Positions 45,359 through 51,489 of a stretch of DNA of 51,489 bases are shown piece after piece (position 1 is the first letter of the stretch; each line of letters starts with the position of its first letter). The position numbers and the translations under genes were made by a program. The stretch is taken from assembly GCA_029570375.1 (NCBI GenBank), contig JAKPXB010000031.1, positions 1 to 51,489 of the forward strand. The letters are read 5' to 3'. A model generated the notes under the pieces. It did no database searches and had not been told where the DNA came from. It saw only the letters and a list, made by a program, of their open reading frames with translations. Source of the DNA: Bacillota bacterium. Lineage in GTDB: Bacteria; Bacillota; Clostridia; Saccharofermentanales; DTU023.

Positions 45359-46336
45359 TCAGCCATTTTCATGCGCGTGACTGGTGCCACAAGTGCGAAT
45401 GTCAAGAACGACTCCCTGCTGTGCCGCGGAGGTCCGCCAGCTTTCCAGCAACGGCCGAGATTTCCACGGTATGTCGTTATCGGGAATGATCAGAATCAAC
45501 CGCCGCCGGCGGATCGACCCCGGAGCTGGCCCTTCGCCGCCCGCCCCTTCAAAAGACGCGAGTTCGGAAATACAGCGGTTTAGCCTTCTCTCCGCCAAAA
45601 TCGGTTCTGAATATGACGGCGCTGTCAGATCCATGCTTTTTATCGAAACAGCTTCCGAACCGTTCCACGCGGCGATAACTGGATAAAACTGCGGCAGATG
45701 GCCGCCAAATTTCTTTCTGAAAACGATACCTCTCTCGAAATTACTGAGTTCCCAGATTCCATCACTGTTGTTCTCATTCTCTGTTTCACCGGGTTCCCTA
45801 AAGAGCGAGGCGTTCCAAATTGGGATACGAGCGCGGACGGTATCCATCCAGTGGCCGAGAGGTGTTGTTTTCTGAAAAGAAAGCACGAGCCATACTGACC
45901 GGCTGCCGTTGTCGATATCGATCGCGAGGCGCTTCGCGCAAGCCGGCGGCTCCCTGTGCTGCGCTCTGGAGATTTCTTCCGCCCATGTATCAACACGGTT
46001 TAAAACAAAAGGTGAGACGAGAACAGTCGCCGCGACATCAGACAATCCGTCGAGGGCGATCCCTGCCAGCGTCTTATTTGGAATCCACTTTTTTATATAT
46101 TTCTCCGGATCAGCCACTTTTTCAACAATGTCAGCGAGAGGCAGCAGGAGCGCGATTTCCTTTCCTGTCTGGTTCAGAGCATGAGAGAGGATTAAGGCAT
46201 TCTGTTCACCTCTGATCATCGCGACAAAAGCGAGCATGATCATCAGTACGAGTGGAAATACGAGCACGGATTCAAGTGCCAGTGATGCTCTGCGTGTCAA
46301 AGGAACCCGTTTGTTCAAATCATTCTTCCCGTTCAT
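45359..46336 (-). CDS. TadE/TadG-like pseudopilin-type membrane protein
   Basis: 325 residues from the ATG at 46336 (GGGGAGG seven bases upstream). The N-terminus has the pilin-like pattern of a basic stretch followed by SLALESVLVFPLVLMIMLAFVAMI, with the glutamate at the start of the hydrophobic helix as in TadE. The remaining 280 residues look extracytoplasmic, with no motif recognised, and are probably species-specific. The start overlaps the stop of the upstream gene as ATGA. A prepilin-peptidase substrate is likely. Last of a three-gene coupled set. Confidence 0.7.
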   Translation of the reverse strand: MNGKNDLNKRVPLTRRASLALESVLVFPLVLMIMLAFVAMIRGEQNALILSHALNQTGKEIALLLPLADIVEKVADPEKYIKKWIPNKTLAGIALDGLSDVAATVLVSPFVLNRVDTWAEEISRAQHREPPACAKRLAIDIDNGSRSVWLVLSFQKTTPLGHWMDTVRARIPIWNASLFREPGETENENNSDGIWELSNFERGIVFRKKFGGHLPQFYPVIAAWNGSEAVSIKSMDLTAPSYSEPILAERRLNRCISELASFEGAGGEGPAPGSIRRRRLILIIPDNDIPWKSRPLLESWRTSAAQQGVVLDIRTCGTSHAHENG

Positions 46337-47766
46337 GGTTTCACCTCCCCAGATGGAAGACGGCTCAGATAACCCGCGTGCGCGCGGAATAATGTGCCGT
46401 CGCCTGCTATAAGACACGTGACCGATGTAAAGTAAGGGCCCGGGAGGACTTTCTCGATCGCACACGCTATTCTCTGCGTTATTTTTTCGGGCGACTGGGC
46501 GATAATCAGAAGGCGCAGAAAATCTCTGTATCTGAGTTTAACGCGGCAGCTGACTTTCGCCGGCCATAAATCGACTTCATGACCCTTGTTTAACGCCACA
46601 GCGTCCGCCGCGCCCCGGCAAAGGGCGGCACTTGCCATCAGAATCCACTCTATCGCCTCAGGCGGAATGTTCACCTCTCCCAGGGAGACGGCAGAAATAG
46701 CGGCGGCTGCACCGACGGAGAGAGCCTTGTATCTTGAACGGATCGTATCATCCGTGATGATTCGGATAAAGTGAAGCGCGAAACGCACCGCTCCGATGAA
46801 TGCGAGGATGGTCGTTTTGGCTGTCCTTCCGTCCAGTCCCGTGGCAATCTCCTCCGCCTCATAACGCCTGGTGTCAGGAAACTGTGCAATCAGACGCCCG
46901 TCTGGCGTATGATCGTCATGCCGGATGCCTTCTCTCAGAACAAAAGGGACATCATTACAAAAATACGCCAGTGTGTACTCACTCAGAATCAGACGATCAA
47001 AGACGCTTTCAGGCGCGACAAAGAGCATTTTGTCGACCGTTTTCCCGAATGTCTCCATTCCGGTGTTGTCAAATGGGTTCATTTGAAGAGTCACGTGGCC
47101 CGCATCGTACTCCTTCGGCACGACAATTGGCGCGAGATACGTTAACCCCTGTTGATACGCCCGGCGGATTTCCGAGTCCATCAGGCGCTCATATTCGTCT
47201 TTCCAGTCAGGATCTTCCTGGAAATAACCGAGATCAGGATCAACCGCCTCGTAACCCGGTTTCAGTGCGGACGGAAAAAATTCCGAAAGACTGGCAAGTT
47301 CAATCTCTTCCCGGTACTTCTGCATAGCGCCTAACTTATCTAACGCATCTGTGATAATCGAAGCGGCTGCACGCAGTGTCATATGACGTGCGATACCGTC
47401 ACCGGTTTCCCTTCCCCCCAACAGCTCCCCGGCAAATTCCAGCCTGAGCCTGTTGGGAGCTTCCGGATGAAGAACTGAACTGACGGCATGACTCGCGTCG
47501 GCCTCTTTCACACCGAAAAGTCCGTATGTTTTGTACAGATCGCGGTCATAGCAAGCGAGCGCCATGTCCGCCGCGTTTCTCGCGGCACTCGCGAGGTCGG
47601 CATCATTTCTGACCCGGCGCCCGGCGCGGAGAACCCCACAGAAGAGAAACAGCACCGCCGGCAGAATAAGGCATAATGCCAGACTGAGCGACCCGCCGCA
47701 GCGTATGGCACATACGAGGTTCTTCCGGCTGAGCATCGTTCTGCTCACATCCCTGACGCTGATCAT
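46333..47766 (-). CDS. DUF5702/TadG-like membrane protein
   Basis: 477 residues from the ATG at 47766, overlapping the upstream stop as ATGA. An N-terminal hydrophobic helix GSLSLALCLILPAVLFLFCGV follows a basic segment, in the style of TadG/DUF5702, and then ADLASAARNAADMALACYDRDLYKTYGLFGV, which is the DUF5702 opening. The C-terminal half has another hydrophobic stretch near 365-385 and about 400-425. DUF5702 proteins occur in clostridial tight-adherence-like loci. No TadA ATPase or TadB/C is present in the window. Confidence 0.72.
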   Translation of the reverse strand: MISVRDVSRTMLSRKNLVCAIRCGGSLSLALCLILPAVLFLFCGVLRAGRRVRNDADLASAARNAADMALACYDRDLYKTYGLFGVKEADASHAVSSVLHPEAPNRLRLEFAGELLGGRETGDGIARHMTLRAAASIITDALDKLGAMQKYREEIELASLSEFFPSALKPGYEAVDPDLGYFQEDPDWKDEYERLMDSEIRRAYQQGLTYLAPIVVPKEYDAGHVTLQMNPFDNTGMETFGKTVDKMLFVAPESVFDRLILSEYTLAYFCNDVPFVLREGIRHDDHTPDGRLIAQFPDTRRYEAEEIATGLDGRTAKTTILAFIGAVRFALHFIRIITDDTIRSRYKALSVGAAAAISAVSLGEVNIPPEAIEWILMASAALCRGAADAVALNKGHEVDLWPAKVSCRVKLRYRDFLRLLIIAQSPEKITQRIACAIEKVLPGPYFTSVTCLIAGDGTLFRAHAGYLSRLPSGEVKP

Positions 47767-48074
47767 TGCGAGGAATCCCCGTTCGATCCGGCTGACGTGT
47801 ATGTGCGGATAATAGCGATGAAATCGCGGGCGAGAGACAGTGATTCGATCATCTTCTGGGGGCAGGTATAAACTACGGGAATCCGGCATTCCCCGCGCCC
47901 GATCTCTTCATATCGGCACGTATATCCCTGACTGTTCTCCAGAGAGGAAACAAACACATTGATCTCCGCTGTACGTTTCACCCCCGTTCCGAGAGGCAGG
48001 GCGATTCCTGCTGTCTGAGCCAGAATCGTCAGACAACAGGGAATCGCGACGATTGATTCAATTGAAAAACCCAT
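47763..48074 (-). CDS. Small pseudopilin-like protein
   Basis: 103 residues from the ATG at 48074, where GGAGGTG lies six bases upstream; an upstream ATG at 48098 is less well placed. It begins GFSIESIVAIPCCLTILAQTAGIALPLG, a short pilin-like hydrophobic helix with glutamate at the fifth position of the motif. Two cysteines (CRYEEIGRGEC) may form a disulphide. First of the three coupled genes. The 228 bases upstream to the hydrolase gene hold an imperfect hairpin (AATCCTTC/GAAGGATT near 48147-48163) and a short frame of about 33 codons that I cannot support as a gene. Confidence 0.65.
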   Translation of the reverse strand: MGFSIESIVAIPCCLTILAQTAGIALPLGTGVKRTAEINVFVSSLENSQGYTCRYEEIGRGECRIPVVYTCPQKMIESLSLARDFIAIIRTYTSAGSNGDSSQ

Positions 48075-48302: not shown

Positions 48303-48980
48303 CTAGTCTGCGAACCCCATAAACGCTAAAAAGCGGCAGGCATCAGACGCGTTCGTGATGGAGCTGTGGCCAGGGCACACCGGCATACCCTCCGGCAACT
48401 TCGAAAGGACGCGGTACAGCCTTCTGAGTGAACCGCGCATGAGCGCGTCGTCGCCTGTAGCGAAATCCGTACGGCCCCATCCACGATCAAAGAGCGTATC
48501 GCCGGAAATCACGGCAACAGGTCTGTCCGTATGATCTTCGCGCCGATTAATAATAAAGCACGAAGACCCCATCGTATGTCCCGGGGTATTTAACACGTCG
48601 AGATAATACCGGCTGTCGAGCTCGATGACATCGCCTTCATTCAGAACGCGATCCGGCTTCGGAAAAGTACCGGGCCGGCCGAATAGAATCGACGCGTTCA
48701 AATCGGCATCGCCGAGCATCGGGATATCGCCCCCGTGCATAAGGAAAGGAACCGCGGGATATTCGCTTTTCCACTCATTTACCCTGCCGATATGATCATA
48801 ATGCGCATGTGTCGCGATAAGTTTAGATACGGGGTATTTCTGGTCGATTGAATCTGTGCCAAGAGATGGATCAAAGACAACTTCAGAATCGAAGCATGTG
48901 AGCACATAAACATTGCAGCTCCGAAAGCCTTCCTGATAATAACGCAGTTCTCTTGTTATCTCATATGATTTTTTCTTCAT
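48303..48980 (-). CDS. MBL-fold metallohydrolase, glyoxalase II (GloB)-like
   Basis: 225 residues. The metallo-beta-lactamase site is THAHYDHIG, followed by NTPGHTMGSSCF, SGDTLFDRGWGRTDFATGD (the GloB/YcbL-type GRTD block) and PGHSSITNASD. These supply both metal sites. Glyoxalase II enzymes hydrolyse S-lactoylglutathione-like thioesters. In thiol-poor anaerobes the true substrate may differ. Its ATG overlaps the stop of the methylglyoxal-synthase-like gene (ATGA), which fits a shared role in methylglyoxal handling. Confidence 0.87.
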   Translation of the reverse strand: MKKKSYEITRELRYYQEGFRSCNVYVLTCFDSEVVFDPSLGTDSIDQKYPVSKLIATHAHYDHIGRVNEWKSEYPAVPFLMHGGDIPMLGDADLNASILFGRPGTFPKPDRVLNEGDVIELDSRYYLDVLNTPGHTMGSSCFIINRREDHTDRPVAVISGDTLFDRGWGRTDFATGDDALMRGSLRRLYRVLSKLPEGMPVCPGHSSITNASDACRFLAFMGFAD

Positions 48981-49369
48981 GAGCGGACCAGTTCACGCCA
49001 ATCGAGGTCACCTCTGCTTATCGCAAGAATGAGGATTTCCGCCGTGGCGGTATTTGTGGCATAAGGAATACTATTTGTATCACACGCCTGGAAAAGCCTG
49101 TGCTGAGAGTCAGGGACAGGAATGCCGGGATCGCGCAGACAGATAAGCGCGTCGATTTCGTTGTACAGCGCGATTGACGCGAGCTGGCTGTAGACACTAA
49201 ACGCATCGGCTGAGAAACGGGCGAGTTTCAGCGATGTCGCTTCTTCAATCAAACGCGCTGTATTGATAGGAGACACCAGCTCGTGTTTAGCCAGTATCTG
49301 CTGGTAGGCAACGCAAAAATTCACAAGTAGTTCATTTCTCGATGTATCCGCCAGTAAAATAATCTTCAT
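48977..49369 (-). CDS. Methylglyoxal synthase-like protein, probably inactive
   Basis: 130 residues with the MGS-like fold order: IILLADTS, then IDALICLRDPGIPVPDSQHRLFQACDTNSIPYATNTATAEILI, a close match to the second half of MgsA. The first half is degraded: the phosphate-binding TGTTG region reads SPINTAR, and the GGDQQ block with the catalytic aspartate reads SVYSQ (about 58-62). It may bind a ligand without making methylglyoxal from dihydroxyacetone phosphate. It is coupled to the GloB-like hydrolase downstream. In many Clostridia mgsA follows the rod-shape/division genes, which supports the family call. Confidence 0.72.
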   Translation of the reverse strand: MKIILLADTSRNELLVNFCVAYQQILAKHELVSPINTARLIEEATSLKLARFSADAFSVYSQLASIALYNEIDALICLRDPGIPVPDSQHRLFQACDTNSIPYATNTATAEILILAISRGDLDWRELVRS

Positions 49370-49497: not shown

Positions 49498-51489
49498 TTA
49501 TCTGCCCCTGTAATCATCATAGGGACCCATCCTTTCATGGGTGGGCTGAATTCCAAAATATTCGCATAATATACGGTAAGAGATATCTGAGGAGTATTCG
49601 CCGTATGCGCCATCCGAAATTGCATGCGCGATGACAATCTCAGGATCGTCGGCAGGAGCGAAGCAGACAAAAACAGAATTAGAAATCGGCTCCATCTTTT
49701 CATTGAACGATTCGGCCGTCCCCGTCTTACAGGCTACCGATACCGGAAAATCGTGCAGCAGCTTCCCTGTACGGGTGCTCATATTTTTCGACAGCGATAT
49801 CATGGCCGTGCGGAGCATGCTCATACTCTGCTCTTTAAAACCGATCGGTTCGCGTTCAATCTTCTCCGGGACAAGGATCGTCCCATCGGGCGATACCACT
49901 TCTTTGATAAAGTGCGGTGTGACGAGATAGTTTGTGGCGAGGCCGGTGACGCCGCGCGCCATCTGCATCATGGTATAGCTGTTATAGAACTGGCCGATCG
50001 ATGTCTGGCATGTATCGGCGATAAACCAGGTTTTATCCTCCGGCTTCGCATTCAGCTGCCTTTTCACTTCACGCGATGGCCGGATGCCGGCGGCTTCGCC
50101 GCTGATGTCCAGTCCGGGATACTCGCCCAGGCCAATTCTTCTTGCCGTCTCACTGATTGTATCGATGCCGGTCTCAACCGCATTCTGAAAGAAATACAGG
50201 TTACAGCTTGTCGCCATTCCCCGCGCGAAATCGAGCGCGCCATGCCCCGTATACCGCATGTAACAGTACCAGACAAATCCTCCGATCTCCTGATGGCCGC
50301 GGCATATCCTTACCTGATTGTTCGGGGTGACGACTCCCGCCTCCAGGGCTGCCATGCCGGACACTGTTTTAAAAGTCGAGCCAGGCGTGTATGTCTCCGC
50401 AATACAGCGGTTCAGGAGAGGGCGGTATTCGGTATCGGTCAGCATCTCGCGGACGCGCTTCGCCGCGTCAGGGTCTCTCGACATATTAATAAAATCAGAC
50501 GGATCATAGTATGGGTAGTTGGCATTGACGAGGACCGCGCCCGTTTTTGCGTTGAGCACAACAACACAGCCTCCAGGCGCTTCCATAATTCGATTTTTGT
50601 GTGAACTCCCACGGTATTCGAATATCTTTCGTTCCAGCTCCTCCATCGCGCATTTCTGGAGATTGAGGTCGATTGTCATTTTGACTTCGTTGCCGGGAAC
50701 CGGCATGGACATAATCTCTCCGGGGAACGTGACAGGAGATTCAGATTCCTTTCCCTGCCATGACTGAATAGTCGCCGTTCCTCTGACACCTCTCAAATAC
50801 TGGTCGGCCGCCTGTTCGACGCCGGATTTGCCGATCACGTCCGTATTGCTGTAGCCCAGAGACCTCAGTCTCGCGTATTCATTGGCGGAAATCTGCCCCA
50901 CATACCCCAGCGCGTGACTGACGAAACGGCTGTCGTCCGTGTAGCGCCGCGTGTACTGCTGGGAAACAACAAGACCCGGATAGCGGTAATTCTGCTCCGT
51001 CAAACGTGCGGAAAGCGCTTCAGGCACCGATTCCGACAGCGTGATCGGCTGGTGGTTCAAAAAAAGCCAGTTATTCTCGAGAAGCAGATAGCGCAGCTGC
51101 ATGATAATGAAGGCTTCGCCATCCGAATAGAGGCGGCTGCCCGAGGTGCGGTCAGGTTCAATCGCGAAATAATCATAGAGGAGATAATCAAACAGTTCAT
51201 CCGGCTTTTCGCGGACAACACGGCGTCTGAGCCTCGCGGAGACGGCTTTCTCCTGGGTCACCAGGTTTAATACGTTGGGATCCGTCTGCCACCGGACAAT
51301 CTCTTCCATATTCTGCCGGAAAACAAAAGACAGTGATTCATCTGTTTTCAGAAGGGTCTTCCCTCGCAGCTCGGAAGGTACATCGAGCCATTTCAGCAGA
51401 GGGCTTTGAAATGTACAGCCAAATTCATCAAATAGAAGAGCGACATCAAGAAGGAAACGATTTAGCTGATCGTTCGTCATATCGGTTGA
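49498..51489 (-). CDS. Class B penicillin-binding protein (PBP2/MrdA-like), N-terminus cut by window edge
   Basis: At least 660 residues; the frame is still open at 51489 and the usual N-terminal membrane helix is missing, so the gene continues beyond the window. The pedestal domain has LVVSQQYTRRYTDDSRFVSHALGYVG and GKSGVEQAADQYLRGVRGT. The transpeptidase motifs are STFK (serine nucleophile in TPGSTFKTVS), SCN and KTGT. It cross-links wall peptides during elongation. It ends GIQPTHERMGPYDDYRGR. The methylglyoxal-synthase-like gene follows after 128 bases with no recognisable terminator. Confidence 0.9.
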   Translation of the reverse strand, partial: STDMTNDQLNRFLLDVALLFDEFGCTFQSPLLKWLDVPSELRGKTLLKTDESLSFVFRQNMEEIVRWQTDPNVLNLVTQEKAVSARLRRRVVREKPDELFDYLLYDYFAIEPDRTSGSRLYSDGEAFIIMQLRYLLLENNWLFLNHQPITLSESVPEALSARLTEQNYRYPGLVVSQQYTRRYTDDSRFVSHALGYVGQISANEYARLRSLGYSNTDVIGKSGVEQAADQYLRGVRGTATIQSWQGKESESPVTFPGEIMSMPVPGNEVKMTIDLNLQKCAMEELERKIFEYRGSSHKNRIMEAPGGCVVVLNAKTGAVLVNANYPYYDPSDFINMSRDPDAAKRVREMLTDTEYRPLLNRCIAETYTPGSTFKTVSGMAALEAGVVTPNNQVRICRGHQEIGGFVWYCYMRYTGHGALDFARGMATSCNLYFFQNAVETGIDTISETARRIGLGEYPGLDISGEAAGIRPSREVKRQLNAKPEDKTWFIADTCQTSIGQFYNSYTMMQMARGVTGLATNYLVTPHFIKEVVSPDGTILVPEKIEREPIGFKEQSMSMLRTAMISLSKNMSTRTGKLLHDFPVSVACKTGTAESFNEKMEPISNSVFVCFAPADDPEIVIAHAISDGAYGEYSSDISYRILCEYFGIQPTHERMGPYDDYRGR

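Follow-up and report, generated by a model that had tools for sequence, protein, structure and literature searches.

A methylglyoxal synthase-like protein with a substituted active site is conserved beside envelope growth genes in the clostridial order Saccharofermentanales

Members of the clostridial order Saccharofermentanales carry a conserved gene for a methylglyoxal synthase (MGS)-like protein in which the MGS active site appears to have been lost and which lies, at most loci, next to a gene for a PBP2-type transpeptidase. Combining residue identities, distribution, phylogeny, substitution rates and gene neighbourhoods, we suggest with a probability of roughly 0.6 that this is a repurposed MGS-fold protein that senses a ligand or binds a partner, i.e. 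a subunit with a regulatory or binding role connected to envelope growth.

The locus

The window is the whole stretch of DNA analysed here, 51,489 nucleotides long (contig JAKPXB010000031.1 of assembly GCA_029570375.1). Its genome is 1.73 Mb in size and 95.6% complete, and the MGS-like gene is the sole match to the MGS model TIGR00160 in it. On the minus strand the PBP2 gene is followed after 128 bp by the MGS-like gene and then by an overlapping gene for an MBL-fold hydrolase:

49498-51489, minus strand: PBP2-type transpeptidase, upstream neighbour (Pfam Transpeptidase 5.3e-50, PBP_dimer 8.4e-22); the frame is open at the contig end
48977-49369, minus strand: MGS-like protein of 130 aa without the MGS active site (ORF, TIGR00160 match, predicted MGS fold, substituted site residues)
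48977-48980, minus strand: ATGA in which the stop codon of the MGS-like gene overlaps the start codon of the MBL gene (gap -4; plus-strand letters tcat)
48303-48980, minus strand: MBL-fold metallohydrolase of 225 aa (ORF, Pfam Lactamase_B 1.4e-17, metal ligands present)

The MGS-like and hydrolase ORFs lie where the first-pass annotation had placed them, both on the minus strand. Scans for promoters and terminators gave numbers close to those in shuffled sequences (4 against a mean of 2.1 with an sd of 1.5, and 1 against 1.6, respectively).

Further downstream in the window, two minus-strand ORFs (46336-47889 and 45362-46465) give weak matches to DUF5702 and TadE (20.9 and 17 bits, under the cut-off) and to a CDI-toxin-type nuclease fold (17.4 bits against a cut-off of 27). 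A neighbour cluster from other loci of the order, represented by L179, clears this nuclease cut-off (31.3 against 27 bits); as judged from crude ORF picking and single-linkage clusters, it is present in 42 loci, often preceding secA. A pseudopilin-like start and a nuclease-like end would be an unusual combination.

The MGS-like protein is predicted to have the MGS fold

The relation to MGS proposed in the first-pass annotation is borne out by profile and structure searches. TIGR00160 matches the protein over nearly its entire length with an E-value of 1.2e-16 and 61 bits, short of the cut-off of 146.9; NF003559 gives 57 bits (cut-off 84) and Pfam PF02142 gives 12.4 bits (gathering score 24.1), and the PF02142 profile by itself fails to detect the gene in its own genome. 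Among PDB chains, the protein matches 6f2c, the MgsA of Bacillus subtilis, with an E-value of 1.2e-19.

The structure prediction that had been proposed as a check returned an AlphaFold2 monomer model with a pLDDT of 90 and a pTM of 0.84, built from an alignment of 60 of 81 sequences (A1). The top solved-structure matches of this model are all MGS (1wo8 with Z 20.4, 6f2c with Z 19.7), followed by the MGS domains of carbamoyl phosphate synthetases (Z 12.4), and we conclude that the window protein is predicted to have the MGS fold. Judging from this fold, the protein probably still forms a hexamer. B. subtilis MgsA resembles the window protein in fold (1.5 A over 118 residues, 36% identity), length and descent; in contrast to it, MgsA has an intact site with GGDQQ and HEPD motifs and no RGDLDWR end, and the window protein lacks D71, H19 and K23. 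The MGS-like domain of carbamoyl phosphate synthetase is a regulatory ligand domain. It shares the fold and provides a precedent for a non-catalytic, effector-binding MGS domain, but has 14% identity and belongs to a large enzyme.

The active-site residues are substituted throughout the order

In MGS, D71 acts as the base with help from H19 and H98, and the phosphate is held by K23, T45-G49 and S65, as described in passages of PMC7843640, where the MGS of Clostridioides difficile is given as active; the numbering of that enzyme (H8, K12, 34-38, S54, D60, H87; PMC7843640) agrees with our alignment. In the window protein D71 is replaced by Y, H19 by D, K23 by N, the TGTTG loop by PINTA and S65 by A, and T48 is the one phosphate-binding position retained. 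In the lid, the profile alignment pairs H98 with D and D101 with H, a placement that is unsure because the lid is shorter.

We take D20, D91 and D101 to be further MGS site positions and counted them as well. Of 14 site residues, the free-standing, canonical MGS of the class retain 13-14 (n=9), the other class sequences 7-14 (n=42) and the order sequences 1-4 (n=60; 65 loci minus the contig-end fragments L154, L155 and L156 and minus L100 and L104, in which the C-terminal motif seems to be absent). D71 is present in 9/9 canonical, 16/42 other class and 0/60 order sequences, and H19 and D20 are each retained in 9/9 canonical and in 0/60 order sequences. Throughout the order, K23 and the greater part of the phosphate loop have been replaced; D91 is retained in 60/60. 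Separating D91 from the column of C96 of the window protein are 17 residues in 9/9 canonical and 30/40 class rows and 15 in 55/60 order rows (the 40 class rows are the 42 minus L203 and L205, excluded after the tree had put them beside B. subtilis and Thermus). The first-pass annotation had described the phosphate-binding and catalytic-aspartate segments as lost; the residues are, but by substitution and not by deletion, the roughly two missing lid residues excepted.

The positions that were vacated carry new residues characteristic of the order: Asp at H19 in 59/60, Ser at A44 in 58/60, Asn at T47 in 50/60 and Asp or Glu at G66 in 58/60 sequences. Mean entropy over 16 old-site columns rises from 0.33 in the 16 class rows with D71 to 1.13 in the 26 without it and 1.88 in the order; over 12 hallmark columns, which were picked post hoc from the alignment so that the contrast is descriptive, it falls from 0.47 to 0.20 to 0.14 across the same groups. 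The fixed elements common to the order and its clostridial relatives are an FCxAY helix, CD, ATNxATAE and a C-terminal RGDLDWR, the last found in 39/40 class rows, 56/60 order rows and the window protein; the four other order rows end in SGALDYR (twice), AGSLDYR and AGALDYR. The two loci set aside for an apparent want of this end, L100 and L104, belong to one genus of the window's family, and in them D71 and H19 are also absent. In another set of loci, L025-L080, which come mainly from Lachnospiraceae and other clostridia, 5/56 proteins have Asp, 20 Glu and 18 Lys at position 71, and most retain His19, Asp20 and the phosphate loop; this set is biased, since its members were selected for their likeness to the window protein.

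Residues, distribution and phylogeny together strongly support that the MGS active site has been lost in the window protein and in the order, and from this loss it would follow that MGS activity has been lost as well. That the protein is still an MGS working with other residues is very improbable: the MGS fold and ancestry and the invariant D91 would agree with it, and the Glu that replaces D71 in some relatives might keep some activity, but across the order other residues stand at the base, at H19, D20 and K23 and over most of the phosphate loop.

Descent from an active-type MGS

Trees were built from 95 and 71 selected rows; the topology given here is that of the second, with the site columns excluded, and the first agrees with it. 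Canonical MGS are split from all other sequences (100/100), and the MGS of Thermus and B. subtilis, in which the sites are intact, branch at the base of the non-canonical part. All order sequences group in a single clade (100/100; stem 0.84), which arises from within clostridial genes linked to mre, pbp2, min or rodA. Within the non-canonical part, at least five changes at D71 are placed after Thermus and B. subtilis branch off, and D71 is already lost in 26/40 of the clostridial relatives. As reconstructed from these alignments, the order protein descends from an active-type MGS by way of a clostridial branch residing in growth loci. Its clostridial MgsA-like relatives, at mreBCD, pbp2, minCDE and rodA loci, share its clade, its FCxAY, CD, ATNxATAE and RGDLDWR elements and a related neighbourhood, and differ from it in the number of site residues kept and in that an MBL neighbour was found at none of their 42 loci.

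The gene is near-universal in the order and strongly constrained

TIGR00160 matches of the low-scoring kind occur in 115/118 order genomes, beyond chance, in 35/38 genomes of the window's family and in 87/87 order genomes of good quality (at least 90% complete, at most 5% contaminated); the three order genomes without a match are 68 to 88% complete. An MGS above the curated cut-off is found in 3/118 order genomes (G258, G294 and G310), each of which also has a second, low-scoring copy. In the class sample, 157/245 genomes have a TIGR00160 match, 120 of them above the cut-off.

Substitution rates were compared in 22 hand-picked order pairs, six of which share the window; synonymous sites are saturated in most of them, and the comparison therefore leans mainly on dN. 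The MGS-like gene has a lower dN than PBP2 in 18/18 pairs having both (one a near tie, 0.205 against 0.207) and a lower dN than the MBL gene in 21/21, and the MBL gene evolves fastest of the three in the sampled pairs. Between the window and four near relatives, dN is 0.024-0.027 for the MGS-like gene, about 0.14 for PBP2 (three pairs) and 0.17-0.19 for the MBL gene. For the MGS-like gene omega, computable for 13 pairs, ranges over 0.02-0.08, and in 7/7 it falls below the PBP2 value. The low dN argues against a pseudogene or a passenger, and the rates point to strong selection for another role. We reject a pseudogene or assembly error also in view of an open MGS-like frame free of internal stops in 115/118 genomes, a truncated gene in view of an alignment that spans the full length, and an oddity of a single metagenome-assembled genome in view of the presence of the gene across the family.

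An elongation and division neighbourhood without a fixed partner

The first-pass annotation made no mention of an elongation or division context. Loci of the clostridial relatives read, for example, maf, mreB, mreC, mreD, pbp2, minC, minD, minE, rodA, MGS-like gene, M23 peptidase. In the fetched stretches, profiles detect one or more genes of the mre, pbp2, min and rodA set at 40/42 class loci and MinD at 33; RodA, at 11/42, is a lower bound because its profile was made from nine sequences. These 42 loci were not a random draw, and their key neighbours were re-tested by profile after crude ORF picking and single-linkage clustering. No elongation or division gene was found near the remaining two, L203 and L205, the loci that group with B. 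subtilis and Thermus, and such neighbours were found at 0/9 canonical MGS loci. In the order PBP2 lies upstream at 53/65 loci. The older context of the MGS-like gene is a cell-elongation and division locus.

A component specific to the elongasome (Rod complex) that binds PBP2, RodA or MreC would account for the upstream PBP2 and for the neighbourhood of the class loci, but it is an improbable reading, since the gene is retained in genomes in which MreC was not detected, four of them also without a strong MreB match; an obligate elongasome part is rejected on the same grounds. MreC was not found in 12/118 order genomes, 11 of which retain the MGS-like gene. In five genomes of one family (G061, G258, G289, G300 and G303, two of them single-contig), neither MreC nor an upstream PBP2 was found, and in four of these (all except G061) MreB matches are near 1e-20 only; with frames of 606-638 aa, these hits would be other actin-fold proteins such as DnaK. 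The four are possibly lineages that lost rod shape. In total, MreB matches are weak (1e-17 to 1e-22) in 6/58 order genomes, the four together with G024 and G314; in G024, which has MreC, the weak match may reflect an assembly gap. MinE was found in 0/58 order genomes, with a positive control that was itself found in just 3/14 control genomes.

The adjacent hydrolase is an accessory neighbour

The window MBL protein has the metal ligands HxHxDH, H, D and H, each of which is intact in 49-50 of 50 aligned rows, one row being gapped at two motifs, and it is encoded by the sole such gene found in its genome at E <= 0.001. Its likeness to glyoxalase II, proposed in the first-pass annotation, which called the hydrolase intact, holds at the level of the superfamily: TIGR03413 (GloB) gives 54.6 bits against a cut-off of 200.8. 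By this curated model the protein is classed as a short MBL-fold hydrolase and not as GloB. Short MBL hydrolases of known structure resemble it (7ev5, 7l0b and 2xf4; about 210 aa, E 2.7e-19 to 1.1e-13), with 7ev5 and 7l0b its closest solved relatives.

The proposed coupling of the two genes, and the survey for further pairs suggested with it, found partial support. Besides the ATGA overlap in the window, an MBL gene lies downstream at 51/65 order loci, and 54 loci have any MBL match, three of them upstream only; in the fetched stretches none was found at 11/65 order loci or at 42/42 class loci, and a strict MGS-MBL pair is rejected on account of the 11. These comprise all eight loci fetched from the family of the five genomes named above (L169, L170 and L172-L177), two from another family (L165 and L166) and L156; L156 is a contig-end fragment, and L165, L175 and L177 lie on short contigs. 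We regard the hydrolase as an accessory neighbour that accompanies the gene in some members of the order. Persistence of the MGS-like gene where Min, Mre or MBL genes were not found weakens each of them as its sole partner, and no fixed partner emerges.

These data also bear on the idea of an enzyme for a new reaction, in which a re-specified pocket would use Asp8, Asp/Glu55, Asp80 and Asn36 for catalysis or metal binding, partly in one pathway with the hydrolase. In its favour are the near fixation of the new pocket residues and, at many order loci, an MBL gene that overlaps or lies close by and has its ligands intact. We consider it unlikely, given that the hydrolase was not found near 11/65 loci and that the piecemeal loss of D71 in relatives, before the order arose, looks like relaxed catalysis and not like a switch of substrate. 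The first-pass annotation had left the choice between a ligand sensor and a new reaction; the nearly fixed residues specific to the order are compatible with either as a candidate role.

Discussion

We favor the regulatory or binding subunit described at the outset and suggest the following route to it: (i) the enzyme MGS would have been placed in a growth locus of clostridia, (ii) its catalytic base would have been lost in several clostridial lineages, (iii) in the window's order it would have been converted into a protein without MGS activity, conversion of DHAP to methylglyoxal being lost, (iv) the old phosphate and catalytic pocket would have been refitted, with Asp at H19, Ser at A44, Asn at T47, Asp or Glu at G66, D91 retained and a shorter lid, and (v) the rebuilt protein would read a small molecule or hold a partner and in that way adjust envelope growth or division.

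Links between MGS and growth have been described in B. subtilis: according to PMC10714963, Crh targets and regulates MgsA there, and MgsA, Crh and cell elongation are tied together. Among the matches listed in literature searches on MGS with mreB, rodA, minD, pseudoenzyme or clostridial cell shape, none treats the link described here, as judged from the listings.

A wider version of our reading is tentative, and on balance we doubt it. An MGS-fold hexamer would be an order-wide core growth regulator that reads a novel ligand, perhaps a cation or a metal, in an acidic pocket and tunes envelope synthesis or division; in addition, the mgsA genes of clostridial mre-min-rodA loci would be shifting from enzyme to regulator, and many 'methylglyoxal synthase' genes of gut clostridia would not make methylglyoxal. 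Annotation already calls for caution in this respect: at seven of the 42 class loci (L191, L193, L195, L212, L213, L232 and L236) the gene scores above the TIGR00160 cut-off and lacks Asp71, and such genes matter when the methylglyoxal output of gut bacteria is predicted. If our reading is true, the order has a conserved protein encoded next to genes of growth, and a connection of cell shape with central metabolism could be put to the test.
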